DNA of 64,000 bases from Leptolyngbyaceae cyanobacterium clean351 (GCA_027451865.1 DAIDHW010000001.1:969530-1033529), one strand, 5' to 3'; counted from the stretch's first letter, positions 4,408 to 60,175 are shown. Made by a program: numbers and translations. The notes: generated by a model from the letters alone, not told the origin.

Positions 4408-6183
4408 GTGAACAAGCCTACAATCCACCACCGGCGATCTCAGTACCGCCTGCTCGGTGTAGTGGGTCAAGGCCAGTTTGGCCGCGTCTTCTGTGCCAGT
4501 CATCGCCACAGTGGTCAGATTGTGGCCCTGAAGTGCCTTGAGCACGAACGCTTCTCCACCCATAATTTTCTCCGGGAGTTGCGCTTCCTTCTAGGTCTGC
4601 AACACCCCAACATCGTCCCCTGTTACGCCCTTGAGCACACTTCTACTGCCCGCTACCTGGTAATGGACTACGCAGAGGGGGGGACTTTGCGTACCTTGCT
4701 AGAGAGCAACTGCGGTCTCAACCTTGGTCAAGGCCTAAAATTACTTTTGGACATCCTCGCCGGCCTAGGTCATGCCCATGGCCAGGGGATTGTTCACTGT
4801 GACATTAAACCAGAAAACATTCTCATCAATGTCCATCCCTACGGCTGGACAGCGCGCCTCTCAGATTTTGGCATTGCCCGGTTACTCCAGGACTCCTCAC
4901 GCCTTGCCGGCGGGGCTACGGGTTCCCCTGCCTACATGGCTCCGGAGCGCTTCTACGGCGAGTATTCTCCGGCCTCCGACGTCTACGCTGTCGGTATCCT
5001 GCTGTACGAAATTCTGGTAGGTAGTCGCCCCTTTGCCGGTACACCGGGTGAGCTGATGGCAGCCCATCTCAACGAAGTCTTGACTATACCCCTCTCGGTA
5101 CCCCCCCCCCTAGGTAAGGTGCTCACCAAGTCCCTGCGCAAGTTACCGGGACAAAGGTTTCACACAGCTGAGGAAATGAGCACGGCAGTCCAGCAGGTTA
5201 TGAGTCAATTGTCGGCTAGCACCCTCCACAACCTCCTGCACCGGCTGCCTGCTGCCTCGGCCTGCCCGCCAGTAATTATTCTGCAGCAATCCCTTGACCA
5301 GCCTGTGAATAAGGTCATCCCTAGTTTTTCGCCCACTGGCATAGCCTGGGCCGCCGGGCCTAAGCTGACTTGGATTCTGCTCAATGAGGCCTCAAAAGCC
5401 ACCATCCTACGTGAACCAATTGTGGATGTGTGGGGATGTCCGGACCGCTACCTGATTGCCACTGACCAGGGTTTATACCACTGGAAACCAGGGTCTGTGG
5501 CTCGACAGGTGTTGAGCTTACCCCCCCACTGTCAGGTGGTGGTAGAACCCCGGGGGGATTGGTTTGCTACCTTCTCGCCGACTGGAAGTAAGGGGGCTAC
5601 GTTAAGGTTCTGGAAATCAGCCGATCTAGGAGCACCGCCAGTCATAGCTACCCTCCCCAGGATACCGAGGAGCTACCTACTAGTCCCAGACCGCCGGCAC
5701 CTGGTAATCCTCACGGCCAAGACAGCCCGCCCCGGGGAGGCAACTCCCAGCCCTGGGATGATCCTGAGACTTTACAATCGGCGGGGCCAGTACCTGGGCA
5801 GCTGGTCCTTGCCGGTCCTCCTCGAGAAGCTTGTTTTGAGTTACCGTGACTATCGGTTACTGGGCACAGACCCCCTCAACCCCTATTGCGTTGTGATAGT
5901 GGACTTGAAGCCCTTCCGGATTCGTCGCCTCTACCTAGGTTTCTTGCCTGTGGTCCTAGCAGCCCTCCCCTGGGGGTTTGCCTTAGCCAATCCTGAGGGA
6001 GCAATTAGCCTATTTGACAACTACGGGGAATCTGTAGGCCAGATCGTTTGGCCGACACCAGTCACCATTACTAGCATCAGTGCCCTAGACGCCCAAACTC
6101 TGGTAGTAGGGACCTGGGACAGTCGCCATGGCTTGCTCCACTGGCTAGACCTCAAGCGAATGGGTCTAGACTTGGTGTTTTAA
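4408..6183 (+). CDS. spkG: Serine/threonine protein kinase SpkG-like with C-terminal propeller-like domain
   Basis: 591 residues from GTG. The N-terminal kinase domain (about 13-270) is complete: glycine loop G20-x-G22-x2-G25, K42, the catalytic loop HCDIKPEN with D132, DFG at 153-155 and APE at 178-180. Residues 290-591 look like a beta-propeller, with repeated strand-turn-strand units and many W/D residues. SpkG (Slr0152) closes the homologous Synechocystis operon, so this kinase probably signals on PSII assembly or high-salt response. A run of ten C at 5101-5110 lies inside the gene. The last 265 bp are duplicated at 10689-10953, flanking the island downstream. Confidence 0.85.
   Translation: MNKPTIHHRRSQYRLLGVVGQGQFGRVFCASHRHSGQIVALKCLEHERFSTHNFLRELRFLLGLQHPNIVPCYALEHTSTARYLVMDYAEGGTLRTLLESNCGLNLGQGLKLLLDILAGLGHAHGQGIVHCDIKPENILINVHPYGWTARLSDFGIARLLQDSSRLAGGATGSPAYMAPERFYGEYSPASDVYAVGILLYEILVGSRPFAGTPGELMAAHLNEVLTIPLSVPPPLGKVLTKSLRKLPGQRFHTAEEMSTAVQQVMSQLSASTLHNLLHRLPAASACPPVIILQQSLDQPVNKVIPSFSPTGIAWAAGPKLTWILLNEASKATILREPIVDVWGCPDRYLIATDQGLYHWKPGSVARQVLSLPPHCQVVVEPRGDWFATFSPTGSKGATLRFWKSADLGAPPVIATLPRIPRSYLLVPDRRHLVILTAKTARPGEATPSPGMILRLYNRRGQYLGSWSLPVLLEKLVLSYRDYRLLGTDPLNPYCVVIVDLKPFRIRRLYLGFLPVVLAALPWGFALANPEGAISLFDNYGESVGQIVWPTPVTITSISALDAQTLVVGTWDSRHGLLHWLDLKRMGLDLVF
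5919..6183 (+). repeat. Direct repeat, copy 1: 3' end of spkG
   Basis: The final 265 bp of spkG, including the stop codon, recur without gaps at 10689-10953. I count about two dozen mismatches by eye (roughly 91% identity), many at third codon positions, which suggests both copies were under protein-level selection or come from different strains. The two copies bracket the AT-rich three-gene island. Confidence 0.9.
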
Positions 6184-6270
6184 TCCTTTGTGTTGGCATA
6201 GAGGGTAACTGGCAGCAAAAATCGCGTGATAATGACTAGTCTCTTTTAGAAAAAATTCAGACTTCTTTAC

Positions 6271-6343: not shown

Positions 6344-6523
6344 AGACAAAAGTGGCAGATACGCGACACTGCCTGGGATGCCTTTGCGCCCCAGTCCAGG
6401 GAGTGGCGTAGGACAATCGCATTTCCTATGCGCCTTACAGTGAGTAACAAAGACCCACGGACTCTTTCTAATCTGGACCAAGTGGCCCAGCGGCTCTCCC
6501 CACCCTGCCCCCTCACTTTCTGA
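6344..6523 (+). pseudogene. Possible coding fragment of unknown origin
   Basis: An open stretch of 59 codons after a TAG, with no start codon near its beginning. It is rich in W, R and Q early (WQIRDTAWDAFAP, then REWRRTIAFP) and ends at TGA 6521. Codon use looks like that of the host chromosome and not of the island. I cannot identify a family. It may be debris from the event that placed the island here, or chance. Confidence 0.2.
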
Positions 6524-6561: not shown

Positions 6562-8226
6562 ATGAAAACTCCTGATATTGGCTTGTCTTTTGCCCTGTGG
6601 TTGAATCAGGTAAGAAATAGTTTCTTTAAAGAACTAATCCTAAACAAGAGCAATCTTCGACATGTCTCAATTTGGGATATTGGAGAAAGTGGAGGCTTTT
6701 TCCATCATTATGATAGTCAACATGAGAAATATTCTTATACTGATCACGAGTATCCAGCATCTCGGAATCGTAGAATTGAATATTTTCCCGAAGGAGACTT
6801 GCCACTCCATCGCCCAGAAGCCAACAACTTCATCAATAGTTCTCAGCAGTATCCTTTATTGGGTACTTCTCAAATCAAAACATGCTTCATTTGTCGTGGA
6901 TCAGGTCGTATTCCATGTAGGAGCTGCGGTGGGAGAGGCAGATCCACTTCAATTAACTCGAAAGGGAAATTTAAAAGAGATACTTGTCTAAGGTGTAGAG
7001 GAACTGGAAACGTAAGATGTGAGCGCTGTAGTGGGGAAGGGAAGCTCCTAACCTATACTTCCAAAGATTATATTTGGAAACATACAACTGATCGTGAGCC
7101 GATTATTTTGCCAATTATAGATCGTCCCAATGTACGAAGCTTAATCACCACGACTCATAGTAAAGGGGGATCATATCCAGTTGATGAGTTTACCCAAGAG
7201 GAGATTATTAAAAAAATAGGGGTATATAACGAGCGAATTGGCGCTTTAGTGCGACACGCAAATGACCAGGCTATAAGAAAAGAAGAGGAGATTAAGCAAC
7301 GCTTTGGCACGCTTTTATTCCAAGAACATTCTTGTTTCTATATTCCTTTAGGGTTTGTAAATTTATTTGTTAATCACAAATTTCGTCAGTTTTTCGTTGC
7401 CGGTAATCTAACTTATAGACGTACCCTTAGTCCACCTGTAGGCTGGAATCTTTTTAAACTACTGGGGTGGTTTGCGATTGGAGTTGCGCTCAGTTTATAC
7501 AGTTCTGTCTTAATGAAGCGTGAACTCGCTATTATAGCTATCTTAATTAGCTTGGGAGTATTGCAGTTTATTCTTGACTTCCTCTTGCAATGGCCCAGAA
7601 CCTGGCTTATATTTGATGATGATGGTTTAGGGGGGTGGTTATTCGTACATTTACTGGTTCAGTCAATTAGTCTCAGTCGCAAAGGGAAGTTATTAGATCC
7701 CTGCTACACTGAACTCTTTCATCTTCCCCAAATCGATACTTACAAATCACGTAATTCTTTTTTTTGCACCATAGAAACCGGAAAGGGAAAGCAGCGACAG
7801 AACACTGAACTTTTTCTGGTTAGTCAACGTGCTCTTAGTTTATTTAATCAAGATCTTCAAAAAATTACTCAAAGAATTCAAACCTTAGTTTGGGTAATAC
7901 AGCAACTTGACGCTGCCCAAACAGATGGATTAATTGCAGATTTTCTCAAGGTTCAATCTCCTGAAATCCGCAAACGGATTCACCTGATTCTAGTTACTGA
8001 TAAACCTGTATTTATTTCATCAGTTACGGAATTATCTCAAACTCATCAATACCTGAATCCCCAGCAAATTAGTTTATACTCTCTCTCCTTGCTACAAGCG
8101 TTTCAAGAATTGCAGGATGGGCAGCAGGGTCCAGAGACAGAAACAACTCTTAAAATGCTCCTAGAAGTGGTAGAACTACCACAAAAAGAGATGCATTCTA
8201 ATTCAGGTAAGGGATCTGAATATTGA
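6562..8226 (+). CDS. Zinc-finger (DnaJ-type CxxC) protein with two membrane segments, island gene 1
   Basis: 554 residues, AT-rich compared with its surroundings. Four CxxC knuckles at C108/C111, C119/C122, C142/C145 and C153/C156, with CRGSG and CRGTG spacing, match the zinc-binding domain of DnaJ, but there is no J domain. Two hydrophobic segments at about 298-316 and 322-343 predict a membrane hairpin. The C-terminal 200 residues are soluble and helical. It is followed 37 bp later by the GTPase gene. I know of no named homologue; it may be a membrane-bound partner or sensor for the GTPase. Confidence 0.8.
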   Translation: MKTPDIGLSFALWLNQVRNSFFKELILNKSNLRHVSIWDIGESGGFFHHYDSQHEKYSYTDHEYPASRNRRIEYFPEGDLPLHRPEANNFINSSQQYPLLGTSQIKTCFICRGSGRIPCRSCGGRGRSTSINSKGKFKRDTCLRCRGTGNVRCERCSGEGKLLTYTSKDYIWKHTTDREPIILPIIDRPNVRSLITTTHSKGGSYPVDEFTQEEIIKKIGVYNERIGALVRHANDQAIRKEEEIKQRFGTLLFQEHSCFYIPLGFVNLFVNHKFRQFFVAGNLTYRRTLSPPVGWNLFKLLGWFAIGVALSLYSSVLMKRELAIIAILISLGVLQFILDFLLQWPRTWLIFDDDGLGGWLFVHLLVQSISLSRKGKLLDPCYTELFHLPQIDTYKSRNSFFCTIETGKGKQRQNTELFLVSQRALSLFNQDLQKITQRIQTLVWVIQQLDAAQTDGLIADFLKVQSPEIRKRIHLILVTDKPVFISSVTELSQTHQYLNPQQISLYSLSLLQAFQELQDGQQGPETETTLKMLLEVVELPQKEMHSNSGKGSEY

Positions 8227-8263
8227 GATTAGCAGTAAACCTTCTTACTTAAAGGGAGAAACT

Positions 8264-9211
8264 ATGAAACTAGATCCGGAATTTAAACGATACAAAGGTA
8301 TCCTGGGACAAGTTCTTTATCGCCTTGGCTTCATAGAGAAAAGCCTTAACATACCACTTTTTGGAGTGAAGGGTGCTGGAAAGAGTTATTTTCTTTTCTC
8401 ACTGGGCATGTTCCTTGCCCATCCACTGCGGAAATTGGGTAAGCCAGAAGGTCTTTCTGAAGATCTTCTCAATGGTTATTGGGCAGAGATATTAAAAGGC
8501 AACGTGATCTCAATTACGCAAGGTAAATTTGATGTGGATTTATTGGTCAGACAAGTTTACTCTGGCGATCATGAAGTTGCAGTAGAACGGCAAGCCTACT
8601 TCGAGTCTGGTGTAATAGATTGGTATCATAATCTTGATGATGTAGAACAGCCTGCAACTAATTCAGATAAGTTGGCTACTCGGATCTTTCTACGTACAAA
8701 TGACATTTCCGGTCAGGAATTCACGTCGGCAATGGAGCGGTTACGTGAGCCGACCACGGAGTTGGGAGGTGATCCAATGACTGGGAAATTTATTCAAGTC
8801 GTGCGAGATGGAGATGGCTGTGTCATGATTATTGATCTAGTTCGAGTGAATTTGACAGCAGAACAATACAAAAAAGATCGTGCAAGATATATTCGGGAAG
8901 CCTTAGGAGAGCAGTTGGTTCCATTAGCCAGGGGGCTAGAACTTGCCCTGAGAAATCAGCGTGATCCCAAAAGACGCTATCCTCTATTCTTGGTATTTCC
9001 AAAACGAGATATTCATGGATTGAACAGTCAAGATTTAACTGACTTATTTCAGCGTATGTTCGCCATGACTATTGCCCGTCTGGAGGAAAAAATCTCTATC
9101 CATGTTCATTCCATCCAAAATATGGGGTTTGAGGAAGACGAAAATGGTGATCTTAAGTTTTCCCGTGGTTTAGGACAATTCTTGGCATCTGTTTACTCAG
9201 TCTTTCGTTAA
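8264..9211 (+). CDS. P-loop GTPase-like protein, island gene 2
   Basis: 315 residues, preceded by AAAGGGAGAA. GTPase motifs can be read in order: G1 at G34-V-K-G-A-G-K40-S41, a G3-like DISGQE at 147-152, and a G4-like PKRD after a hydrophobic strand (K247, D249). A strand ending in CVMIIDL lies between G3 and G4. This is the layout of TRAFAC-type GTPases found in predicted bacterial conflict systems (the double-GTPase group), but the exact family needs a profile search. It lies between the zinc-finger membrane protein and island gene 3 with short gaps, so the three probably form one operon. Confidence 0.75.
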   Translation: MKLDPEFKRYKGILGQVLYRLGFIEKSLNIPLFGVKGAGKSYFLFSLGMFLAHPLRKLGKPEGLSEDLLNGYWAEILKGNVISITQGKFDVDLLVRQVYSGDHEVAVERQAYFESGVIDWYHNLDDVEQPATNSDKLATRIFLRTNDISGQEFTSAMERLREPTTELGGDPMTGKFIQVVRDGDGCVMIIDLVRVNLTAEQYKKDRARYIREALGEQLVPLARGLELALRNQRDPKRRYPLFLVFPKRDIHGLNSQDLTDLFQRMFAMTIARLEEKISIHVHSIQNMGFEEDENGDLKFSRGLGQFLASVYSVFR

Positions 9212-9247
9212 ATTACAGTTTACCTTCTTGTATCGGAGAATTTAAGC

Positions 9248-10222
9248 ATGAATAAAAATCGATTTCAGGCTGAACTTCTATCTGCAGCGCACATTGACTA
9301 TCAAGTCAAAGTTCAGTACATTGGGAATTTTCCCTCAGAGTTATCATCTATCCTTTTAACGGGAGCGTTCCCCCTTAGTCCTTCACCTAATTCTACAGAC
9401 GTTGAAGGTCTTAAAATCTTCACCTTCAGGCAACGTTATCTTTGCTTTTGTTGGTTTTTCCAGGCAGGTCGTCAAGATGAGCGGGGTAGGCATACTAGCT
9501 CATCGCGAGTGTTAGTGTTCCCTTTAGATATTTGGCAAGGGCTAATTCCGACACTTGCAGATGTAAGGGAATGGTTGAAGCATCATGACGTGGAAAATAT
9601 GACAGATAATCAATTCTACGAAGCAGTCTGTTCATTAGAGAATACAAGCCTGTCATCAGATCTGGTTAAAAAGGCTCAGCAGGTCACATGGTTTCCATAT
9701 CTATTAGCCAAGTTGATACAGCAGAAGCACGCCACCATTATTGCATCTACACATGCTGAGGCTTTATCTTGGCTTGAAATTTTGTGGTACTACACTCCTG
9801 ACTTTCTCCGATTGAAAATAGAATGGTGTACCTATATTTGGTCCCTGCGAACGGATCATGAAGAAGTTGTTGCTGCTGCTGGTCAGGTTGAGCTACCTCC
9901 GAGGCCATCTCTTCTGAAAAGGTTATTCAAGAATTCTACACGAGAAGAATCAGAATTTCGATTTGATGTTGTACAAGGAATCTCGTCACACCAAATGAAG
10001 GATCTTGATCTGAAACCCTTAGAATGGCTTTGTCAGGAGTTGGTTCGGCAAGAGAGTTGGCAGGGTTTGGAAGTAGATAAGAAACATATATTTATTGCTG
10101 AATCATTAGAGCGCCTGTCCTGTAATCCACGCATCAAACTGTCTAGCCTTATATCTGGCTACCCAGCCAGTCCTAAGTTGATAGAATTCTCCAATTTACT
10201 TAGTCGAAAGAACCCTGATTAA
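9248..10222 (+). CDS. Island gene 3, possible GTPase-associated adaptor (GAP1-N-like)
   Basis: 324 residues, 36 bp after the GTPase gene with GGAGAA upstream. The N-terminal 95 residues contain CFCWFFQAGRQDERGRHTSS leading into a VLVFP strand. A GRxDxRGR motif before a hydrophobic strand is what I remember of the N-terminal domain of GTPase-associated protein 1 in conflict islands. That match is from memory and weak. Residues 110-324 are helical and without recognised motifs. Low G+C like its two partners. Confidence 0.6.
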   Translation: MNKNRFQAELLSAAHIDYQVKVQYIGNFPSELSSILLTGAFPLSPSPNSTDVEGLKIFTFRQRYLCFCWFFQAGRQDERGRHTSSSRVLVFPLDIWQGLIPTLADVREWLKHHDVENMTDNQFYEAVCSLENTSLSSDLVKKAQQVTWFPYLLAKLIQQKHATIIASTHAEALSWLEILWYYTPDFLRLKIEWCTYIWSLRTDHEEVVAAAGQVELPPRPSLLKRLFKNSTREESEFRFDVVQGISSHQMKDLDLKPLEWLCQELVRQESWQGLEVDKKHIFIAESLERLSCNPRIKLSSLISGYPASPKLIEFSNLLSRKNPD

Positions 10223-10471
10223 CTGTTCTTCAGGAATTGAGAATTACTCATATTCAGGTTGACGTAATGGTTTGAGTGTTGTGGAAGCTATCACCCGGCC
10301 AATTAATGCTCTCCTCCGAAAGTCGACTACCTCCAACCAGATCGCCATAAAAATTCTCGGTACAATACAGCATCGTAAGTCTACAGTTGCTATCAAGCTT
10401 CTCAGTGTCCTTGTCTAACTTCACTGCAGATGGGGACGACCCGCTCTACACCCTTTGCCCAGGCTCTATTA

Positions 10472-10688
10472 GTTATTTGGACGCACCACCCGTAACCGGC
10501 CAGTGTTATCACCTCCTAGACATCTTCTAGTTTTAGTCCCAGTAGTTTGCCATGATGTAGCCCTGTCTCCCGCAGTAGCATGAATTGAGACACCCCTGCA
10601 CCAGGCGGATGACTTCCTCGCCGCGGAGGAAACCGCCCCGCTTACCCCAGCCGTGGGCCAGCCGGGTAAATTGCTTATCATCAATCCA
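10472..10688 (-). pseudogene. Decayed tyrosine recombinase (integrase) relic
   Basis: On the minus strand three frame-shifted pieces line up with the core of XerC/D-type recombinases: GGFLRGEEVIRLVQGC (like the FLTPEEV helix), then LLRETGLHHGKLLGLKLEDV (like the TGLR-x-SEL-LGL-x-x-EDV segment carrying the first catalytic Arg), then TGRLRVVRP. Here the arginine position of TGLR reads H, and there are at least two frameshifts and no C-terminal HxxR or Tyr box, so it is dead. It lies directly next to the second copy of the spkG 3' end, as expected for an integrase at an attachment site. Confidence 0.5.
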
Positions 10689-10953
10689 GATTCGCCACCT
10701 CTACCTGGGCTTCCTGCCCGTAGTCCTAGCAGCCCTCCCACGGGGGTTTGCCTTAGCCAATCCTGAGGGGGCAATTAGCCTATTTGACAACTACGGGGAA
10801 TCTGTCGGCCAGATAGTCTGGCCGAAACTAGTCACCATTACTAGCATCAGTGCCCTGGACGCCCAGACTTTGGTAGTAGGAACCTGGTATAGTCACCATG
10901 GCTTGCTCCACTGGCTAGACCTCAGGCGAATGGGTCTAGACTTGGCGTTTTAA
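10689..10953 (+). pseudogene. Second, diverged copy of the spkG 3' end
   Basis: 265 bp matching 5919-6183 with no gaps and about 91% identity, in frame to the stop codon at the same place. The upstream sequence is not homologous to spkG, so this is an isolated 3' fragment. It ends overlapping the stop of mscL on the other strand by four bases; this junction is probably the ancestral spkG-mscL boundary, and the island plus a new spkG 3' end were inserted upstream. Confidence 0.85.
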
Positions 10954-11381
10954 TTCTTGCGCTCCTCAAGGCGCTGGGCCAGACGGTCCAGGGTGGCAGC
11001 GATCCGCTCCTGTAGCAGTAGGTTGGGGTCAGGGGGGGCTTGGGCGGCCTCGAGGGCCTCCTGCCGCCGGAGCCGGCGTTGGGCGGATTCAAAGGCACGA
11101 ATCATGAGAAATATGGAGAAGGCGATGACAACGAAGTTAATCACCGCAGCCAAGAATAACCCGTACTTGATGCCAGCCACCGCCAGGTCATTGAGGTCAT
11201 TAAGGTGCAGACTGGTCAAAACTGGACTGAGAATTGCCGGAGTAATAATGTCGGTGACTAGAGAGTTAATGATCTTGCCAAAGGCCGCGCCGATGATCAC
11301 CGCCACCGCTAAGTCCACTACATTCCCGCGCATCAAGAATTTTTGGAAGTCCCTCCAGAAGCCAGTTGGGTTATTAGTCAT
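10950..11381 (-). CDS. mscL: Large-conductance mechanosensitive channel MscL
   Basis: 143 residues. It starts with FWRDFQKFLMRGNVVDLAVAVIIG, broken here as the amphipathic helix and first membrane span: FLMRGNVVDLAVAVIIGAAF covers the conserved N-terminal part. A second hydrophobic span at about 72-95 and a charged C-terminal coiled helix follow. Forms a pentameric inner-membrane pore that opens on osmotic downshock. Length is normal for the family. Convergent with the spkG 3' fragment. Confidence 0.95.
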   Translation of the reverse strand: MTNNPTGFWRDFQKFLMRGNVVDLAVAVIIGAAFGKIINSLVTDIITPAILSPVLTSLHLNDLNDLAVAGIKYGLFLAAVINFVVIAFSIFLMIRAFESAQRRLRRQEALEAAQAPPDPNLLLQERIAATLDRLAQRLEERKN

Positions 11382-27465: not shown

Positions 27466-27658
27466 CAAGGTCAGCTGCGATGTTGGTGCCTGCCAATAAC
27501 GTTTTATGATCTATGTCTGTCTACATTCGGGAGCTAATGGACTTCCTGGTCGCAGTAGACCGAGCCTGCACTCGGAAACTTTAAGCCAGGCCAAGGGCCC
27601 CCACCTGGGTTTACCAGGTCAAAAACTGAGGCAAGACGGCATTGCGGCAACCCAAAAG
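27466..27658 (+). ncRNA. ssaA: 6S RNA
   Basis: About 190 nt. GCTGCGATG (27474-27482) pairs with CATTGCGGC (27640-27648), allowing G-U pairs, to form the closing stem. A hairpin CCGAG...CTCGG followed by AAACTTTAA matches the apical arm of E. coli 6S RNA, and ACCTGG...CCAGGT plus GACGGCATTGC match its right arm and 3' strand. The open central region mimics a promoter bubble. 6S RNA binds the RNA polymerase-principal sigma holoenzyme and tempers transcription in stationary phase or nitrogen stress. The ends are estimates. Confidence 0.88.
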
Positions 27659-50888: not shown

Positions 50889-52310
50889 TTAGAGACTAGC
50901 CAGGCTCTCTTTTAATTTTTGGTGTACTATCAGCATCAGGCTAGGCGGCTCATGACCGCTAACGGGTTGATCAAAGGAACCAAACTTAAACTTTTTTCCA
51001 GACACGAAGTTGAGGCATTCCAAGACATGACTCTCCCAGTCATTCTCGGTAGAATTCCAGGCTTCAAAAAGATCACGTTCACCGAATCCTCCAGTATTGT
51101 GAAATAGTTCGTTTCTTCTGTCTACCAGAGATTTCCGCCGTCTAGCAGAGGTCTGATCAAAGTTAAATAGACTTTTTATATACTTATTATTTTTCCACCG
51201 GTCTTGGTGCTTAACATAGAACAACTGAAATGCTTCCCATCCGTGGGTTTTACCTCCAATATCTCTAGTGACTAAACTCTCAAATGCTCTGTAGGTATGA
51301 AACATAGCTTCAACAGTATTATCCTGCCTTAGCCGCACAAATCCTAAATATGCAGTTTCATAGGCTGTCCACCACGAGTTTTCTGCCTGGTTACACCTCT
51401 GGTTCCCAAAGTCAGGGTGTTTTGAAAGCCTTTTCCCAAAGTCCTCAAACCTAGCCTTGTTCCACAGGGTTGCCGCTTCTAGGAGAATCTTGTCATTCTT
51501 GTCTAAGTAAGCAGCCACTAAGTCTCTGACTCCCGCATAATCGTGGCGGTCTAAAAGTTCCTTCGCCTTTTGTTTTTCAAGTTCTACTAGGTAGCTTGAA
51601 CTTTTGAGCACCTCGTAGGGGCTCTCTTGTTTATCAACGTAGCTGATCAAGAACTTAACCTGATGGTCAAACAGTCCTAAACTGATGAACTGCACGGCGG
51701 AGGAGAGAGCTGGAGTACCAGCCTGGTGGCTGACATAAACTATGTCATCCGGTTGAACTCCAACAGTTTGGTCTCGAGCAGTGAGACCACGAAGTTGGTC
51801 ACGTACTAAACCAAGAACTTCATTCCAGTTATCTAAACCTTTCCTGGGGTCGGTTGGCCGCAGGTAAACTGGATTGCAGGGTACTCCGGGAAACTTGCTC
51901 TGAAAATATTTCTCAAGAATTGGTCGCAGTTCACAGGTGTCCTTCCAGTAGGGGTCTTGCCTCCGGGAATACTCCGGGAATATATCAGTCTGGTCAGTCA
52001 GCAGAACAGTAATTGCCTCCGGCAGTTGATCGGGTTCGTCTTTCCACAGCTGGCAAAAGTTATCCAGCAGGGGAAACCTCAGGGAGCTAAAGATCTCGTC
52101 TTGGGATATCTCATTTGCCCGATACACAATGCCGAGTATTCTCGGATCGACTTGATAATATCCATTCTCAGCTGGGTGCAGATTCCAAGACTTGCTGGGG
52201 AAACTGTAGTCTGTCTTTATGTCGTCATTACACCAATAGTCCCATTTCTTGCGAGCCTCACTACCCAATTGAACATCACTACTGCCGATGGTCACAATCC
52301 AGAGATTCAT
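50889..52310 (-). CDS. CARF-HEPN ribonuclease (Csm6/Csx1-type effector of type III CRISPR)
   Basis: 473 residues. The N-terminus (LWIVTIGSSDVQLG) and VSHQAGTPALSSAVQFIS near residue 205 are the Rossmann-like CARF ring-nucleotide sensor. Near the C-terminus RRNELFH gives the HEPN catalytic motif R399-x4-H404. Such proteins are switched on by cyclic oligoadenylate made by Cas10 and then cut RNA non-specifically. The stop of the double-RAMP gene and this start overlap by one base, so it is part of the operon. Confidence 0.88.
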   Translation of the reverse strand: MNLWIVTIGSSDVQLGSEARKKWDYWCNDDIKTDYSFPSKSWNLHPAENGYYQVDPRILGIVYRANEISQDEIFSSLRFPLLDNFCQLWKDEPDQLPEAITVLLTDQTDIFPEYSRRQDPYWKDTCELRPILEKYFQSKFPGVPCNPVYLRPTDPRKGLDNWNEVLGLVRDQLRGLTARDQTVGVQPDDIVYVSHQAGTPALSSAVQFISLGLFDHQVKFLISYVDKQESPYEVLKSSSYLVELEKQKAKELLDRHDYAGVRDLVAAYLDKNDKILLEAATLWNKARFEDFGKRLSKHPDFGNQRCNQAENSWWTAYETAYLGFVRLRQDNTVEAMFHTYRAFESLVTRDIGGKTHGWEAFQLFYVKHQDRWKNNKYIKSLFNFDQTSARRRKSLVDRRNELFHNTGGFGERDLFEAWNSTENDWESHVLECLNFVSGKKFKFGSFDQPVSGHEPPSLMLIVHQKLKESLASL

Positions 52311-54064
52311 TACACATCACCCCCCCAAAGTTTCCGAAAGCCAGAGCTCTCCGTAGCCAGGAACCGGAGAAAGTTATCTGACTCATGTGAACCGTCTGGA
52401 AAAATAGTGAGCAGCTCGAGAAACTTGGGCGTTTTGCGGATTATCGGCTCCCCCCGATTCTCAGGGTTCTTGCGCAAAACCACTACCGGATACATCCTGT
52501 GCCATAGACTACCCACCTGTCCCACCTTGCCGGCAAATGCCGTCCGGTAAATCGAACTCCCAGGCTGCCCTCGTCTTAACTCTGTTTGATATGGTCCATG
52601 AAACCAGCGAATCGCCTCACTATTTTCTTTATCCTCCGCTTCCCGGCCCCATACCTGTACCTTAGCCGGATGCCATGCTTCACGCCAATCCCCGGACCAT
52701 CGGTCAGATGGTGACTGGATGCCTTGTAATTTGATCCATTCCTGGGCCACCTGACGAACCTGATCGATAAACCCGGCTACCTTCTCCAACCGCCACACCT
52801 TTATTCGCCGTAATGTCTGGTCTCCTAACCACTGCCAATGACAACCGATCAAAGCCTTATTAGAATTTTGATAATAGTCGCTGAAGAACTGGCGGTGGTC
52901 AGCCCGCCGCCATGATTTACCAAATCCACCAAACACCATGGCGAACTCTATCAGATGCCCTAGGAGCTTCTCGAGAGTTGATTTATGACTAGGGTTATCA
53001 AGGGGCCTTGCCAAGTACCAGATTAGAGTCCCCTCTACGTCATAGTATGGCTGGGCATAGGAACCTCTACCAAAGGTATCGAGAGTGAGCTGAGACTCTC
53101 GGAACTTACAGCCTAATAAGCCGACTTTGCCCTCTTTGCCACTAATGCCCCCAAATAAGGTCTCTACCAAAGCCTCAGCCTTGCCAGCGTCAGTTAATCC
53201 CCCAAAGACCCGCAGGGCGTGACCACGTAAGGCTGCCCGGAAGATATTCGGTCGGAACTCCCCCTCCCCGGTGACTAATTTGGGGGCCTGACCCTGGCCT
53301 TTCAGGGTGGCTTGGTAGAGGACTTTGGTGTTACCAGTACTATCACCCACCTGACCATAGCCAGCCGCGACCCTTGAACCTAGTCCTCTGGCTAGGGCCT
53401 GCTGCCAAATCTGCCCAATGGTTTCCCATTCGGCCGGCGACAACGGTTGTGTACTGGAAATACCAAATCTCAAGTTAGGCTTGTAGAGGGAAATTTGCAC
53501 AAAGGCCCCTCCTTCTTTTTTGTCATCTTTAACCTGCCAGCGCTGTTGGGGATGGACAACGTCAACTAGGTGTTTTCTCCATTCATCATCAGTCGGATAG
53601 CCGCCGTGAAACCTCAATATTCCCGGCTGCCAATCGTTATTTGGCAAGGGTTTACCACAGTACTGGGCCGCCTGCTGTGGATTGCAAGCCCGCCGAAACA
53701 AACCCTTCATAGAGCTGCCCGGAAAGTATGGCAGCCCCCGCGCCCCAATCACCGGGCGAATCACTCCATCATCCATGCCGCTGTTGGTCAGCAACCGCCA
53801 CGAGACCTGGCAGTCATAGGTGTGGAGCCCTGCTGCTAGTGGAGATTGAACTGGCTCAGCCCGTGATGTCCACTCGTCAGCCCAACGTTTCGCATCCGAT
53901 TCTTTGTTCTTCTCTAACCGCTGAATTTGGCACCGCCCGTTTACCTGTGCCCGAAACATCATCGGCACTTTTTGGGCGACATCTCCCTGGGCAACATTAG
54001 GAATCACTTTCATCAGCTGCTCCACCAACTTTATAACGTTGAGTCCACCACACAATGCAGTCAC
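52310..54064 (-). CDS. cmr6: Cmr6 fused to a second, Cmr1-like RAMP domain
   Basis: 584 residues; the real start may be M18 (MKVIPNVAQGD, 54013). The first half is Cmr6: SWRLLTNSGMDDGVIRPVI, then YFPGSSMKGLFRRA and the Gly-rich GLGSRVAAGYGQVG. From about 265 a second RAMP begins with EFRPNIFRAALRGHALRVFGG cut here as FRPNIFRAALRGHALRVFG, then LFGGISGKEGKVGLL and a late Gly loop VFGGFGKSWRRADH; this is the pattern of Cmr1. Ordinary Cmr6 is about half this length, and no separate cmr1 is in the operon. Confidence 0.75.
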   Translation of the reverse strand: MTALCGGLNVIKLVEQLMKVIPNVAQGDVAQKVPMMFRAQVNGRCQIQRLEKNKESDAKRWADEWTSRAEPVQSPLAAGLHTYDCQVSWRLLTNSGMDDGVIRPVIGARGLPYFPGSSMKGLFRRACNPQQAAQYCGKPLPNNDWQPGILRFHGGYPTDDEWRKHLVDVVHPQQRWQVKDDKKEGGAFVQISLYKPNLRFGISSTQPLSPAEWETIGQIWQQALARGLGSRVAAGYGQVGDSTGNTKVLYQATLKGQGQAPKLVTGEGEFRPNIFRAALRGHALRVFGGLTDAGKAEALVETLFGGISGKEGKVGLLGCKFRESQLTLDTFGRGSYAQPYYDVEGTLIWYLARPLDNPSHKSTLEKLLGHLIEFAMVFGGFGKSWRRADHRQFFSDYYQNSNKALIGCHWQWLGDQTLRRIKVWRLEKVAGFIDQVRQVAQEWIKLQGIQSPSDRWSGDWREAWHPAKVQVWGREAEDKENSEAIRWFHGPYQTELRRGQPGSSIYRTAFAGKVGQVGSLWHRMYPVVVLRKNPENRGEPIIRKTPKFLELLTIFPDGSHESDNFLRFLATESSGFRKLWGGDV

Positions 54065-54419
54065 AAAGCTGAGTCAAAACTGCCAAGGCAACCCGTTGGT
54101 CTTCTATGGACAGGCTCCACAGTTTGTTTGAAACGGATTCAATTGTTTTGGTGTCCTCAGGTTTAACGGAGTCATTTGGTAACTCGATGCCCGTCTTTAG
54201 CATCACCTGACAGAATTTATCCCAGGTCTCTTTCCAGTACCTTGACTTATTCTCCTCCTTAACTTTAAGGCGCAGGTGTTCACCCCAAAAGCGCTCCAAA
54301 CCGTAGGAGACAGCAACCCGCATTTTATGGGATTGGTTCAAGGAATTGGGGTCGTGCTTACGAGCATTAATGACCAATTTTTGAGCGATACGGTCTAGTT
54401 CATAGGAGTGCCAAGCCAT
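53997..54419 (-). CDS. cmr5: CRISPR Cmr5, small subunit of the type III-B complex
   Basis: 140 residues, all helical: YELDRIAQKLVINARKH at the start, VAVSYGLERFWGEHL, and KLWSLSIEDQRVALAVLTQL. Position between cmr4 and cmr6 and size fit Cmr5 (Cas11 group), which lines the crRNA-target duplex. Overlaps the cmr6 start, and shares one base with the cmr4 stop. Confidence 0.85.
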   Translation of the reverse strand: MAWHSYELDRIAQKLVINARKHDPNSLNQSHKMRVAVSYGLERFWGEHLRLKVKEENKSRYWKETWDKFCQVMLKTGIELPNDSVKPEDTKTIESVSNKLWSLSIEDQRVALAVLTQLCDCIVWWTQRYKVGGAADESDS

Positions 54420-55252
54420 TACTGATAACCTCCCGCAATTAATACACGGCAGCGACCAAAGCCGATAGACTCTAGACCGCCGAAATAGAGCTCCGAGGTG
54501 TAAGGCGTTTTAGAATCAATCTCCCCAAATGGTTTCCACCCATCTTTTTTTAAGGCAATGGGGAAGACCAAAATACTGCCCTCCGGTAGGGCTTCGGTAT
54601 TGAAGAAGGCTCCCCGCTCAGTGTCCACCTTCTTCATATCGTCCTGTAACTTCACTCGGCTCTGGCGGTAAAGTGCCATGTCATGCAGCATGACAATATC
54701 ATTGTCATCAACTACCACGAGTTTATTGGGGTCTAGATCTGTGCCCTCGGGGACCCAAGCTTTTAGGTCTTTCTCATGCTCAATCTCCAGAAACCCCAAG
54801 TTAAAAAAGAGGATTTTGCCCCGGTTAGGCATCTGCCTCCCCTGTAGCCCGGCCTGGGATGTGTAGGGGACTGGGACCTGATCTGAGATACCCGTAATTC
54901 GCTTAAATCTCTTGAGCAGCCTGGGACAGCTCACCCAGACCACTGGCTGACCCGGGCAAAAAACAGGCATCCACACCAGGGAAGCGTACTCAAACTTGAC
55001 CAGGGCTTCGCTAGTCCCCCCGTCAGATAAACCTGCCACCGCCTCATGGCCGTACCAGGTTTGCTCTTCACCCGGTTCATTGCTGCGCATATCTGCCCGA
55101 AACCGGCCGCGGATCGAACTGCCGGGGATTATACCAGTTCGGGTGAATTGATCCCGGAAGATCAGATTTAAGTTGCCTGTTTCCTCCCCAGCAGTTGCCC
55201 CCACGTGGACAGGGGCTAGGGTTTCGATGATGCCGTAAGCTTTTCGGTACAT
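54419..55252 (-). CDS. cmr4: CRISPR Cmr4, backbone subunit of the type III-B complex
   Basis: 277 residues. LAPVHVGATAGEE, then IIPGSSIRGRFRADMR is the RAMP signature, and the C-terminus has LYFGGLESIGFGRCRV. Cmr4 forms the repeating backbone and cuts target RNA every six bases with an Asp that, as I recall, precedes LPIxRE in other Cmr4 proteins. Here that stretch reads GNLNLIFRD, putting N29 at the Asp position. Overlaps the cmr3 3' end by 37 bases. Confidence 0.88.
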   Translation of the reverse strand: MYRKAYGIIETLAPVHVGATAGEETGNLNLIFRDQFTRTGIIPGSSIRGRFRADMRSNEPGEEQTWYGHEAVAGLSDGGTSEALVKFEYASLVWMPVFCPGQPVVWVSCPRLLKRFKRITGISDQVPVPYTSQAGLQGRQMPNRGKILFFNLGFLEIEHEKDLKAWVPEGTDLDPNKLVVVDDNDIVMLHDMALYRQSRVKLQDDMKKVDTERGAFFNTEALPEGSILVFPIALKKDGWKPFGEIDSKTPYTSELYFGGLESIGFGRCRVLIAGGYQ

Positions 55253-56403
55253 TTTGGTACTCCCTGAATATCAACGGGCAAACTCAAGCCGCAGCCCAAA
55301 TGCTTAAGCGGAAATCCTTCCTTCGGAAACCACTCCTGCGGAAAATCCCACCAAGTCATCCCCAGAGGCTCCCGCAGCACATAGACACTCCCGGCCGGGA
55401 CAGCGTAGCGCCCCCTGCTCAACCGCCCGGTGCTTTCGGGGTCATAGCTGTTGTTAGCATCCACACCGTTGCGGTTGTGAGACCGACCAATGCGATAGCG
55501 AAACGGCACCGCCTTATCGGTCAGGAGCTTAAGATCCCGTTTGGGAAAGCTAGGATGTTGGGGGTAGCGGTAGGACAGCTTATTTGAGCCCCAGACTCCA
55601 GGGGTAATCAGCGCAAATGTATGGCCAATTTTCTGGTTCAAAAGACGATTGATCCTGTGGTTAGGCGATAGGGGATGACTTTCGATTTCAACCAAATGAC
55701 CTTCACCCCCGAAACGATACCAACCATTGAACTGCCCATGTTCCACATTGGTGAGATACACCAGGCAATCCTCCTCTGGCAGCTGGACAGCATTTTCCAA
55801 AAACAGGCCATCCTGCGCGACCACGTGTCGCTCATCAGGTTTCAGCTGAGGATGTAGCAATGGAGTCGCCCTCCAGGGAGCATTTGCGACCACTCCTGGT
55901 TCCTGGAGCTGACTAGAATGCTCATTCCAGGCGCTTACGAGTTGCCAGGAGTACGCAGGCTTAATAGAATTTTCCCGGCGCTGCCACTGGTATTGGTTAA
56001 GGTGCCACTCTGAATCACCTGGCTCAGGGGACTGGTCTGGAAGTGGGCTGGCCCCCGCCTTTTTTGCCAGGAACCACTCATCTAGAACCAGCTTGCCACA
56101 CTCATCACGACCAACCACCCGATGCCAGGGGATTGGGACATAGAAGTCTCTGGGCGTATCGTCACGTTTAGCCCAGAAGGGGCCCGCAACCACTAACTCC
56201 CGCTTCAGATGTTGAGGATCAGCAAAATTTTGTTCTCGATTAGCATTTAATAATAATCCCGCCATAGTCGCAGCATCAGGGGGAAACTTAGTGTTAGAGC
56301 GCCCGACTAGGTTTTCAGGGGACAGAAAGCCACCCGCGCTACCATACATTAATCCTAAGGGTGATACCGTAACTAAGGATTTTAATTGCGACATAGTTGC
56401 CAC
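55216..56403 (-). CDS. cmr3: CRISPR Cmr3 (Cas5-type RAMP)
   Basis: 395 residues. Cmr3 features: the N-terminal LVTVSPLGLMYGSAGGF, the middle HTFALITPGVWGSNKL, and the C-terminal GSVYVLREP with a conserved YAVPAGSVY. Cmr3 caps the crRNA 5' handle next to Cas10. The start may be M4 (MSQLKS). Overlaps the cmr2 stop by 22 bases. Confidence 0.88.
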   Translation of the reverse strand: MATMSQLKSLVTVSPLGLMYGSAGGFLSPENLVGRSNTKFPPDAATMAGLLLNANREQNFADPQHLKRELVVAGPFWAKRDDTPRDFYVPIPWHRVVGRDECGKLVLDEWFLAKKAGASPLPDQSPEPGDSEWHLNQYQWQRRENSIKPAYSWQLVSAWNEHSSQLQEPGVVANAPWRATPLLHPQLKPDERHVVAQDGLFLENAVQLPEEDCLVYLTNVEHGQFNGWYRFGGEGHLVEIESHPLSPNHRINRLLNQKIGHTFALITPGVWGSNKLSYRYPQHPSFPKRDLKLLTDKAVPFRYRIGRSHNRNGVDANNSYDPESTGRLSRGRYAVPAGSVYVLREPLGMTWWDFPQEWFPKEGFPLKHLGCGLSLPVDIQGVPKCTEKLTASSKP

Positions 56404-58010
56404 CCTACTTGAATCAGGTCATCAATCCAGTTCACAACTGCGACATCAATGGGAGATTTATCTACTCCGGTAAGATACTCCCACTGTCGCTCTTTTTCAA
56501 ACTTCTCCCCAGCATTATCAAAGTAAAGATCCAAAACAGATAAGGGAATCCCCCTTCTCATATCTATCCCCTCCATCTCCTCTAGCCGAACCGCATGCCG
56601 AGCCTTAAGCGTTGCCCAATCACTATACAAGTGGCCCCAATTAGCGGTCTTGCCAGACCCCTTAGCCATTTCTTCGCGAGTGTTTATACCATCCCGGTCA
56701 CGATACTTTATCAAAATATCAAGACCGGCCCAGGGACAAGTCCACTGTACATACTGACCGCTGTTGAACAAAACACGGATTGTGACGCGATTACGACCCA
56801 AGGTCTTCGCTCGCTTTTCTGCTTCCCGACAATGCTGGAGCACGTCCCGCTGGGGGACACTAGGGCCAGCCCAGACAAAACCAACACTCACCGTTATTTC
56901 TTGACCATGCCTCTTCCATTGCCCTGGCAATTTTACTAACCAGTCCAGAGCTTTAGCTGGAGGAGTAGGTCTTTGGGGGTCTTGGCTATAAATTACTCCC
57001 ATGAAGTCATCCCCCCCTGCGTACACTACTCGTCCCAAGTCTTGGGGAAAGCTCTCCTTGAAGTCGCTTCCCCACCGACGCATCGCCTGGCTAAATTCTT
57101 GCAGTTTGTCATCACCGGTTAGGCCCTCAAGGTGTTTGCCCACCTGGTCACCATCCCCCATGAACCAGCCTGTCCAATGACCAGGACGGTCGACCTCAGG
57201 TAGGCGTACCATTTCCGCGAAACTCTCCAGCCTAAAGCTGCGGTCCAGGTACTCTCCAATGCCTTCATATCTAGTAACCAGGCGCTTAACTAGCTCAGGA
57301 ATACTTAGACGTTCGTCGGGGCGCAAGAATTTGCCTTCAGGTTGGCCTTGAGAGTAAGACGACTCCAATACCCGGGCAAGCTTGGTATAGAATTCCTCAA
57401 CTCCTTGCTTGAGATTTTGTCTTTCTACTTGGGTCATCTCTTGCCCAAGGTTCCGTTCTTGACCTAGGCCATGCCAGGCAACTGCATCAGTTCCACTTAG
57501 ACTGGAGCTCTCACCTACCCAGTTAATCCCGATCCAATCCCGTTTCAGCTTCCGAGTTTCCAGATCTCTCATGGCAGCTCGTGAAGTATCACCTGTGCCC
57601 CAAAAAACCTCCCAGGTATAGCTACCCCACCGTTCCCACTCCCCTTTTTGCTTACCGATTTGCTCCTCGGTCTGTGACCAGTGGTAATGCTCCTGAGGTA
57701 TGTCGAGGTTGGCCTCCACCCATTCTCGGCAGAGCCTCAGAATCCTCTGCCACTCCCCCAAAAGAGTGTTTTGCACATCGTTGCGATCAAACTGCCTTGG
57801 TCCCTTGACTAATATTCTGTTAGGCATTCCCTCTTTAACATCAGGTAAGCCAGGAGAAATCACCTCAAGACCTTGTGACTGAGCCTTTTCCACCAGGACA
57901 GAGCTCAGGTATGACAAAAGCAGCGAGGCTCCAAATAAGTCACGCAACTTACGGGATCTTTCAATGAAACCTTGAACAGGGGCAAAGCTGATAGCAGTGT
58001 AGATTAACAT
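56382..58010 (-). CDS. cmr2: CRISPR Cmr2/Cas10 with active cyclase motif, no HD domain
   Basis: 542 residues from ATG 58010 (MLIYTAISFAPVQGFIERSR); a longer in-frame start at 58079 looks non-native. The N-terminal HD nuclease domain is absent. The second palm domain carries G332-G333-D334-D335 in YAGGDDFMGV, the active site for cyclic oligoadenylate synthesis. VSVGFVWAG and the zinc/D4 helical tail follow. First gene of the minus-strand operon cmr2-3-4-5-6-CARF/HEPN, all overlapping. Confidence 0.92.
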   Translation of the reverse strand: MLIYTAISFAPVQGFIERSRKLRDLFGASLLLSYLSSVLVEKAQSQGLEVISPGLPDVKEGMPNRILVKGPRQFDRNDVQNTLLGEWQRILRLCREWVEANLDIPQEHYHWSQTEEQIGKQKGEWERWGSYTWEVFWGTGDTSRAAMRDLETRKLKRDWIGINWVGESSSLSGTDAVAWHGLGQERNLGQEMTQVERQNLKQGVEEFYTKLARVLESSYSQGQPEGKFLRPDERLSIPELVKRLVTRYEGIGEYLDRSFRLESFAEMVRLPEVDRPGHWTGWFMGDGDQVGKHLEGLTGDDKLQEFSQAMRRWGSDFKESFPQDLGRVVYAGGDDFMGVIYSQDPQRPTPPAKALDWLVKLPGQWKRHGQEITVSVGFVWAGPSVPQRDVLQHCREAEKRAKTLGRNRVTIRVLFNSGQYVQWTCPWAGLDILIKYRDRDGINTREEMAKGSGKTANWGHLYSDWATLKARHAVRLEEMEGIDMRRGIPLSVLDLYFDNAGEKFEKERQWEYLTGVDKSPIDVAVVNWIDDLIQVGWQLCRN

Positions 58011-58574
58011 ACGACTACGAATGCATACATAGGGTTGGGGCGCTGGCAACGTGTGACCGATTCTGGCTTCAACTGGCAAAGCTGCTTTTGATAAATTCCC
58101 GTTGTCATGAGGACCCTCTACTCACTTTAATTACTGTTGTGAGCGGAAGGGCCTATTTAAGCCTCTGGCTAAGTGCCCTGGGTTTAGGAGCTGAAATTTA
58201 AGATCCGAAGCAATACTAGAGACCTCATTACTTGCCTAAAGCAACTTCCCCATGCATACGGCTAGCTGGAGACTAAGCCTTAAACCAGACTCCCAAGCCT
58301 CAATTTGCTGGGGAAGCTAGATTGTGGCGATGGTAGCACAGGCTTAGACTATTTGGTCACGCCACAGCCAGGCCATGGGTTAATTAACCTTGCGGACCAC
58401 AAGGGGGTGGGCATAGGGTTCGAGGGCTGCTTTCTACTCCTGGGAGGAACATTGTCTCAGCAATAGAGCAAATATATTATAATTACCAGCAAAAGCCTCA
58501 GGGTGTCTTATCGACTTGTACCAATTGTCTTTCGCGTGCCAGCCTGGGGATGGAGGTCACTGGGGCCGGCAAAT
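58011..58574. other. Gene-free leader region of the cmr operon
   Basis: 564 bp with no credible gene. Contains an AT-rich patch at 58468-58485 with TATAAT-like elements on both strands, and a CTCAC/GTGAG inverted repeat near 58119-58141 that could be an operator for the operon. No clear -35/-10 pair for cmr2. Confidence 0.4.
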
Positions 58575-58610
58575 GTATCCATGTAATTGATATCCCCAGC
58601 GCGTGGGGAC
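58575..58610. repeat. Degenerate CRISPR repeat A (orphan)
   Basis: 36 bp with 31 matches to the repeat of the array at 61999; changes at repeat positions 3, 9, 10, 18 and 28. The hairpin half is kept apart from one loop base and one stem-flank base. It is followed at once by a 3' fragment of a UDP-glucose dehydrogenase gene. Confidence 0.8.
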
Positions 58611-58735
58611 TTGAACGCCAGACCCCAGACGGCAAAGGGCTTGCCGACCGGGCGGTGTTCGACGGGCGCAATATCTGGGAGCCCGACAGCGTGCGCGCTG
58701 CGGGGTTGCGCTACTACAGCATCGGGCGGGGGTGA
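58611..58735 (+). pseudogene. 3' fragment of UDP-glucose 6-dehydrogenase gene
   Basis: In the frame ending at TGA 58735 the sequence reads GKGLADRAVFDGRNIWEPDS, then VRAAGLRYYSIGRG, which is the C-terminal end of UDP-glucose dehydrogenases (FDGRN...GxxYYSIGR). The upstream part is missing; homology begins right behind repeat A. Higher G+C than its surroundings, suggesting a different bacterial donor. Confidence 0.75.
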
Positions 58736-58815
58736 GGCGAGGCAGCCCCTGGCCCCCCTCCTCCAGTTGTAGAGTAGGTGGCGCTGCTCGCTTGCCGCGA
58801 ATGGCTCTCCCGGCG

Positions 58816-59220
58816 TCACCACACGCCTGGGCGCCTAGCGTGGGTCGGCACGATTTCCTTACCGTAGGGGAAGAAGGCCAGACCCGCCAGCTTGATGTGC
58901 TGGAGGGCAAATGGGATGCCGATGATGGTGATGGCGCACAGCAGCGCCGATACCAGATGCCCCAGCGCCAGCCACCATCCGAACAGAATAGCCCAGATCA
59001 GATTGCCCAGCGCGCTGAAGTCACTGCCCACCACGCCGCTCGGCTTGTCGACCACCTTGTAGCCGAACGGCCAGAAGCTGAGCGTGCCGATGCGAAACGC
59101 CGCAATCGCCCACGGAATGCCAATGATAGTGATGGCGCAGAAGAGCGCGGTGAGCCACCATGTCAGCCCCATGACAAAGCCACCGAGGATGAACCACAGG
59201 ATGTTGCCGATCAGTCGCAT
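58816..59220 (-). CDS. yccF: YccF-family inner membrane protein
   Basis: 134 residues. Two tandem halves of the YccF domain, each with ITIIGIPWA or ITIIGIPFA motifs, and LSFWPFGYKVV and LAFFPYGKEIV. Four membrane helices predicted. Intact, but it lies in a 633-bp block bounded by degenerate CRISPR repeats A and B, next to a foreign gene fragment, so it was probably acquired. Function of the family is unknown. Confidence 0.88.
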   Translation of the reverse strand: MRLIGNILWFILGGFVMGLTWWLTALFCAITIIGIPWAIAAFRIGTLSFWPFGYKVVDKPSGVVGSDFSALGNLIWAILFGWWLALGHLVSALLCAITIIGIPFALQHIKLAGLAFFPYGKEIVPTHARRPGVW

Positions 59221-59243
59221 AGGCTATCCGGTTTGAAATTATC

Positions 59244-59278
59244 GAGACCACTCAATTGATATCCCAGCGAGTAGGGAC
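59244..59278. repeat. Degenerate CRISPR repeat B
   Basis: 35 bp, one base shorter than the standard repeat and with several mismatches, mainly in the first six positions and the stem (AGCGAGTAGGGAC). Repeat C follows after 41 nt, the distance of a spacer. Confidence 0.75.
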
Positions 59279-59319
59279 ATAAAATGGCCGTACCCGCTAC
59301 AGAATTACTGTAGCACAGA

Positions 59320-59355
59320 GTTTCTGTTCAACTGATGTCCCCAGCGAGTAGGTAC
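59320..59355. repeat. Degenerate CRISPR repeat C
   Basis: 36 bp, starting GTTTCTGTTCAACTG and ending GCGAGTAGGTAC; about five mismatches to the array repeat. Paired with B across a 41-nt spacer-like interval (59279-59319). Confidence 0.8.
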
Positions 59356-59363
59356 GCACGCAG

Positions 59364-59908
59364 TCAACGGATGGCTCGCAAGTGGTAGACATAAGTCCAA
59401 CCCCCTTGGCTAACCCGCAGGTACCAGCCTGGCTTGGCAAACAGCTTCTCGCTGAGCAAGAAGACCCTGGTATTCGGGAGGGTCACTCCGGGATTATCCT
59501 GGGGGGTCAGGAGGGGGTCTTGTCCACCCGCTGTAGATTGGAGGTAGGCGGTCCCCATCGGGTCCTCCGCGTACACGTTGCCCTGGGGGTCCACCAGGTC
59601 CACTGCGGGTGCATCGAAGATTGACAGGGGATGGTCAGCTTGGTTGACAAAATGCCACCTCACGACCACGTATTCTGCCCCCCAGGCGGAGCCACTGCCC
59701 CGGTAATCCCAATCCCCTCTACGGATAGGGCGTGGGTAACCACCAGCGGGCTTACGGTGACTCGGTAATCCCCAATGTTGAAGGGCTGCCCTGGGGGAAC
59801 GTCCGTGGTGGGGGTGGAGGACGGGAGATTTAGGGCATTAAAAATGCACAGCCCGGCCAAGCCGACGGTCGAAATGGCCAGGATTTTTATCCAGCGCGGG
59901 AGAGTCAT
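59364..59908 (-). pseudogene. DUF4352-like secreted protein gene broken by a frameshift
   Basis: Two adjoining frames make one gene of about 181 residues. Frame 1 from ATG 59908 has a signal-anchor (WIKILAISTVGLAGLCIF) and GDYRVTVSPLVV, and stops soon after PPGGQN. Frame 2 continues with EYVVVRWHFVNQADHPLSIF to RAIR. Adding one G to the run of six at 59678-59683 joins them as PPGGAEYVVV. The joined product resembles DUF4352 immunoglobulin-like lipoproteins or secreted proteins. It may be a real decay or a sequencing slip. Confidence 0.6.
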
Positions 59909-60091
59909 GAGTACCTATTTTCTTCGATAGCATGGAACTCGCAGACAGAGTTTTAGCTTTCGCCAAACACCTTGGCTCTGTCTTTCCTTGTCGCTATCCA
60001 GAGGGGAACCCCCTTGAAGGCGAAGGTGGCCTCGAGGGTCACAATCCACACCCCCGAATACCACTTTCCCCCCTCGGGCTAGCAAGGGGAC

Positions 60092-60119
60092 AAAAAAAAC
60101 CCCTAATTGCTTAGGGGTT
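60092..60119 (-). terminator. Rho-independent terminator for minus-strand transcripts
   Basis: AACCCCTAA (60098-60106) pairs with TTAGGGGTT (60111-60119); on the minus strand the hairpin is followed by eight T (60099-60092). It would stop transcripts arriving from chrA or from the array beyond it. Confidence 0.88.
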
Positions 60120-60139
60120 GTGTAGTCGAAGTTGTTTCT

Positions 60140-60175
60140 ATTCATATTCAATTGACATCCCCAGCGGGTGAGGAC
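60140..60175. repeat. Degenerate CRISPR repeat D
   Basis: 36 bp ending CCCCAGCGGGTGAGGAC; the central TTCAATTGAC part is kept and the first six bases are lost. Repeat E follows after 41 nt. Confidence 0.75.

Follow-up and report, generated by a model that had tools for sequence, protein, structure and literature searches.

Gene layout and composition

The window analysed here is a stretch of 64,000 nt from the 2.48-Mb genome of Leptolyngbyaceae cyanobacterium clean351 (GCA_027451865.1, DAIDHW010000001.1:969530-1033529), whose closest relatives in our comparisons share only its class. Since the window carries phycobilisome, V4R and DUF3038 genes, its host is a cyanobacterium. Three consecutive genes form the subject of this study, together with the short elements between them:

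6562-8226, plus strand: gene 1, open reading frame of 554 aa with an ATG start
8228-8246, plus strand: spacer element ATTAGCAGTAAACCTTCTT, directly 3' of the gene 1 stop codon
8264-9211, plus strand: gene 2, open reading frame of 315 aa with an ATG start
9212-9229, plus strand: spacer element ATTACAGTTTACCTTCTT, directly 3' of the gene 2 stop codon
9248-10222, plus strand: gene 3, open reading frame of 324 aa with an ATG start

All three reading frames are intact and lie on the same strand, and the even spacing described in the initial annotation is exact, with gaps of 37 nt between genes 1 and 2 and 36 nt between genes 2 and 3. The low G+C content reported there is equally clear: the trio has 39-42% GC, compared to 53-60% in its surroundings, and a GC3 of 0.32-0.38 as opposed to 0.61-0.69 in five flanking genes. 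Furthermore, both gaps open with a related sequence of 18-19 nt, of the form ATTA(G)CAGTnnACCTTCTT. The likeness between (G)ATTAGCAGTAAACCTTCTT and ATTACAGTTTACCTTCTT over that part was matched by none of 5000 shuffles, and a search of the same genome for the first form, allowing up to one mismatch, found no further copy. This repeat may be a duplicated spacer or a common translation or RNA signal. The three genes most likely constitute one functional unit.

Scars of an insertion at a kinase gene 3' end

The trio lies between the following features:

4408-6183, plus strand: Ser/Thr protein kinase gene (Pfam Pkinase, E 6e-51), the insertion target, with its 3' end duplicated
5915-6188, plus strand: left copy of a direct repeat, comprising the kinase gene 3' end, the stop codon and a few bases (repeat search)
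6372-6502, plus strand: remnant of a Sel1-repeat-like gene, 3' end, in the left spacer (DNA search, local alignment and translation)
10370-10690, minus strand: probable tyrosine integrase relic, frameshifted and with stop codons (Pfam Phage_integrase, E 0.079)
10685-10958, plus strand: right copy of the direct repeat, an orphan kinase 3' end, 91% identical (repeat search and comparison)

The direct repeat is 274 nt long with 91% identity between its copies, and it corresponds to the last ~90 codons and stop codon of the upstream kinase gene, both copies ending a few bases past the stop. Of the 26 sites at which they differ, 14 are third codon positions, and the changed codons comprise 15 synonymous and 10 non-synonymous ones. 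Because of this pattern, two diverged coding copies, the element having imported its own version of the gene end, would fit better than a recent duplication. Just inside the right repeat, a minus-strand remnant reads FMLLRETGL...LLGLKLEDV...KGVERVVPI across frames and stops; Phage_integrase is the sole, weak Pfam match of the joined pieces (E 0.079), and the remnant is probably what is left of a tyrosine integrase. The Sel1-repeat-like relic in the left spacer resembles a sequence elsewhere in the same genome (G000:C2:141562-141699), as found by a DNA search. The mobile insertion that the initial annotation had suspected is thus borne out by the repeated kinase 3' end and the integrase-like relic at its right border. 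The best explanation of these borders is that a small integrative element entered at the kinase gene's 3' end and has since decayed, with the trio as its only cargo still intact. Since its reading frames stayed open while the integrase decayed, selection on the trio is suggested.

Such an arrangement invites the reading that the genes serve the element itself, through maintenance, transfer or the exclusion of competitors, rather than host defence. They are, after all, the sole cargo between the insertion scars, accompanied by an integrase relic. The insert nonetheless contains no relaxase, replication or partition gene, the cargo survives though the integrase is dead, the cargo has no match in plasmids or viral contigs, and gene 2 none in phages, all of which makes this reading improbable. 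The immediate neighbours of the trio (the kinase, mscL and DUF3038, by Pfam) are ordinary genes and none is a defence gene, which places the trio outside any defence island.

Gene 1 encodes a zinc-finger membrane protein

Gene 1, residues 108-162: zinc finger of the J-domain-free DnaJ/BSD2 type (BSD2_CRD, E 4.4e-5; DnaJ_CXXCXGXG, E 0.0075)

Four CxxCxGxG knuckles begin at residues 108, 119, 142 and 153, and hydropathy reveals two adjoining hydrophobic stretches inside residues 300-345, in agreement with the DnaJ-type zinc knuckles and membrane hairpin first proposed for this protein. The Pfam match to BSD2_CRD falls 3 bits short of the cut-off, and a comparison with the PDB also returned BSD2 (E 0.001). 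At E up to 10, Pfam returned nothing for the N-terminal, middle and C-terminal parts. There is no J domain or HPD motif, and the DnaJ match is confined to the cysteine-rich region. Gene 1 therefore has in common with the BSD2/DnaJ cysteine-rich domain its four zinc-binding CxxCxGxG repeats without a J domain, but here they sit inside a membrane protein of 554 aa whose N- and C-terminal parts are unrelated. A PADLOC match to PDC-M01B (E 0.023) was rejected, as it stems from the cysteine-rich stretch alone.

Gene 2 encodes a P-loop GTPase

Gene 2, residues 34-41: G1 motif GVKGAGKS
Gene 2, residues 147-152: G3 motif DISGQE
Gene 2, residues 246-249: G4 motif PKRD

The G1, G3 and G4 motifs occur in order and are those originally reported, PKRD standing within FPKRD. 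That gene 2 encodes a P-loop GTPase is well supported by them; that it is a DO-GTPase is only suggested. When the protein was compared to all 24,736 Pfam models (hmmscan, E up to 10), DO-GTPase2 alone was returned, with an E value of 0.16 and a score of 12 bits, below the curated cut-off of 27 and below the 19-177 bits of DO-GTPase2-like proteins from other cyanobacteria. The match spans residues 146-222, leaving the P-loop outside. In the Walker B motif DISGQE, a Q occupies the position of the E in the DxxGE of the reference alignment, and the E follows one residue on. That alignment, made from six real DO-GTPase2 proteins of other cyanobacteria and plasmids, also served for hhalign, in which the G domain of gene 2 proved co-linear throughout (169 columns, score 25.7). 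Full shuffles reached a maximum of 20.9, whereas shuffles that kept the P-loop averaged 26.3. As the P-loop alone accounts for the score, this likeness was discounted. AlphaFold2 on gene 2 alone was uninformative (pLDDT 36), and the protein has neither a zinc ribbon nor a transmembrane segment.

The DxxGQE switch motif of gene 2 is Ras-like, and it raises the prospect of a membrane-associated GTPase module for signalling or trafficking, in the manner of MglA/MglB or Rag/Arf and unrelated to conflict systems. Gene 3 would then regulate the GTPase, and gene 1 would act as a BSD2-like zinc-finger membrane anchor that aids client folding or assembly. The zinc finger of gene 1, closest to the assembly chaperone BSD2, and the position of the trio outside a defence island are in keeping with such a module. 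On the other hand, neither gene 2 nor gene 3 matches a small-GTPase or roadblock family at E up to 10, and genes that are foreign, mobile and absent from relatives suit an accessory function better than a housekeeping one. On balance, we regard a signalling or trafficking role as unlikely.

Gene 3 encodes a candidate GAP1-like partner

Gene 3, residues 74-81: GRQDERGR motif
Gene 3, residues 147-210: GAP1-M-like stretch

The GRxDxRGR motif and ensuing hydrophobic strand named in the initial annotation are present as GRQDERGR followed by SSSRVLVFP. Against the same 24,736 Pfam models (hmmscan, E up to 10), GAP1-M was the only match of gene 3, with an E value of 0.04 for the whole protein and 0.02 for its C-terminal 210 residues. 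The score of 14.6-15.5 bits is below the cut-off of 24. The matching stretch occupies the middle of the protein, where a GAP1 middle domain would be expected, and the GR-rich motif is carried by the N-terminal part. The proposal that gene 3 is GAP1-like is thus favoured by its sole, sub-threshold Pfam match but not by the remainder of the protein, for which no GAP1-N (N1 or N2) or GAP1-C match was obtained in Pfam at E up to 10 and no similarity to GAP1-N1 proteins by hhalign. AlphaFold2 on gene 3 alone was uninformative (pLDDT 37).

A Pfam comparison with DO-GTPase and GAP1 models, suggested along with the first description of the locus, accordingly yields exactly these two families as sole matches, DO-GTPase2 (12 of 27 bits) for gene 2 and GAP1-M (14.6 of 24) for gene 3, both under their cut-offs. 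Such low scores could indicate chance matches in an unrelated GTPase, zinc-finger protein and orphan that were swept in together and have no joint function. Indeed, ordinary enzymes in whole-genome scans reach 18.7-21.6 bits with GAP1-M, stronger than gene 3 itself, so matches of that strength do arise by chance with enough sequence. A score of 14.6 bits for a single, pre-chosen protein is another matter, with p ~2e-6 (E 0.04 over 24,736 models). The neighbouring gene 2 independently matches the partner family, and the tight spacing with related spacers also argues against a fortuitous assembly, which we deem hardly probable. The two sub-threshold matches carry weight because they concern named partners, encoded side by side and in the published order; such a pairing of families from one system is unlikely to have originated by chance. 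The weak profile matches thus suggest a kinship of the trio with DO-GTPase/GAP1 systems. The GAP1-M scan of 380 cyanobacteria gave three weak matches, none beside a GTPase, which were judged to be chance.

Comparison with known GTPase/GAP1 systems

In described DO-GTPase/GAP1 systems, the GTPase gene has a GAP1-like gene downstream of it, zinc ribbons occur on 60% of DO-GTPases and 67% of systems have a transmembrane component (PMC7159879). In the trio, the GAP1 candidate directly follows gene 2 on the same strand after 36 nt, and a zinc finger and a hydrophobic hairpin are present on gene 1. Among the closest parallels is the DO-GTPase/GAP1-N2 type (Kaur et al. 2020, PMC7159879), with which the trio shares the succession of a GTPase gene and a GAP1-M-like gene, the presence of zinc-binding and transmembrane modules, and the weak DO-GTPase2 and GAP1-M matches. 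It differs from this type in having a single GTPase, no match to GAP1-N2 or GAP1-C, no FNIII-repeat protein, a DnaJ/BSD2-type zinc finger that a membrane protein of its own carries, and scores under the cut-offs. No GASH or FNIII component was matched in any of the three proteins (Pfam), nor does the trio contain a second GTPase.

Loci of the other type were also compared. Locus L053 of another cyanobacterium carries GASH, DO-GTPase2, DO-GTPase1, GAP1-N1-EAD1 and trypsin-EAD1 (Pfam), a full GAP1-N1 system, and plasmid loci L086-L089 have a similar five-gene order, with a metallophosphoesterase in three of the four and a GASH label in two of the four, followed by three hypothetical proteins. 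L053 was confirmed by Pfam; the GTPases and GAP1 of L086-L089 were assigned from position and length (gene order and annotation). Detection of the full system at L053 and of the similar order at L086-L089 indicates that the method recognises real systems. The trio shares with these GAP1-N1 systems a conflict-type GTPase adjoining a partner gene, but it is unlike them in nearly every part, as it lacks their two GTPases, GASH, long GAP1 and phosphoesterase or trypsin effector. DO-GTPase2-like genes are widespread among cyanobacteria, occurring in 55 of 390 genomes, and none of those in the fetched loci is detectably related to gene 2.

Loci L055 (103-5770) and L057 (2852-8114), from two other cyanobacteria, contain clusters of three GTPases, DO-GTPase2-like where scanned, along with two unannotated proteins. 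The latter have in common a domain of the form WAxIxYGRTYExDFRFLxIPxDF ... RDxxGRPLYTFVGY that matches no Pfam family and is possibly an undescribed GTPase-associated domain. A kinship of gene 3 with these proteins, considered for the D-x-x-G-R preceding a strand, found no support from hhalign.

Distribution of relatives

Among the relatives and class (~390 cyanobacteria) and one further cyanobacterial family, no relative of gene 2 was found. Gene 1 had none among ~390 cyanobacteria, its other matches being DnaJ-like and limited to the cysteine-rich stretch. For gene 3, a search of 249 genomes of the phylum retrieved no relative; its matches to an SNF2-type helicase and a metallophosphatase are, by their sequences, due to chance. 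Plasmids contained no relative of the trio (tblastn), nor did viral contigs (single proteins and motif alignments), and phages contained none of gene 2 (tblastn), where matches to tail proteins were chance. Pattern scans of GTDB genome contigs, anchored on G3 and on the P-loop, likewise detected no relative of gene 2; each scan had ~100 stretches checked, with confirmation by tblastn, and distant relatives could escape it. The alignment behind the P-loop pattern (A5) included two made-up short rows, whose sole purpose was to influence the choice of residues retained in the pattern.

A putative GTPase-controlled membrane switch

The initial annotation had interpreted the trio as a candidate conflict system. 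What stands of this interpretation is the pair of DO-GTPase2 and GAP1-M matches, adjacent and in the right order, but both are sub-threshold, and the trio lacks a second GTPase as well as GAP1-N, GASH and FNIII. With curated cut-offs not reached and several defining parts missing, formal membership of the DO-GTPase/GAP1 family is not claimed, while a likeness in working is reasonable. We consider it about an even question whether the trio works as one unit and is related, in a minimal and very diverged form, to the predicted DO-GTPase/GAP1 conflict systems. Counted in favour of this GTPase/GAP1-like reading are the operon-like spacing with its related spacers, the insertion scars, the foreign GC content and the intact cargo frames beside a decayed integrase.

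In such a system, the GTPase of gene 2 would serve as a nucleotide-dependent switch, to which gene 3 would bind as a GAP1-like adaptor, coupling sensing to the switch. Gene 1 would contribute the zinc-binding and membrane modules; described systems often carry these as fusions to the GTPase or GAP1, whereas here they reside on a protein of their own, which might act as a membrane-located sensor or effector. We only infer that the proteins form a complex, behave as a switch and act against phages or other invaders. A more specific proposal, which we advance tentatively and think doubtful, is that the trio exemplifies a third GTPase/GAP1 immune switch, of a minimal kind. One GTPase, together with a short GAP1-like adaptor, would here govern a separate zinc-finger membrane protein standing in for both the GASH or FNIII component and a dedicated effector. 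Taken together, a highly diverged GTPase/GAP1-like membrane switch is plausible and unproven. Our literature search found no experimentally tested DO-GTPase/GAP1 system, the described ones being predictions, and a set pared down to three genes would allow phage protection by such a GTPase switch to be tested in its simplest form. Given the weak relationship, the value of the trio is that of a testable lead, not of a discovery.

Other features of the window

Elsewhere in the window, type III-B CRISPR effector genes occupy 52310-58079 on the minus strand:

56382-58079, minus strand: Cas10/Cmr2
55216-56403, minus strand: Cmr3
54419-55252, minus strand: RAMP
52310-54064, minus strand: second RAMP-like gene

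Adjoining the Cmr genes at 50889-52310 on the same strand is a gene for a 473-aa protein with the N-terminus MNLWIVTIGSSDVQL, which may be a CRISPR-associated sensor; Pfam gave no match to it at E up to 0.01. Degenerate units resembling CRISPR repeats are found at 58550-60251, and a CRISPR array runs from 61979 to the window end at 64000, its repeats containing GTTTCCATTCAATTGATGTCCCCAGCGAGTGGGGA with a period of ~75 nt. A 6S RNA is encoded at 27469-27654 on the plus strand (Rfam, 93 bits).
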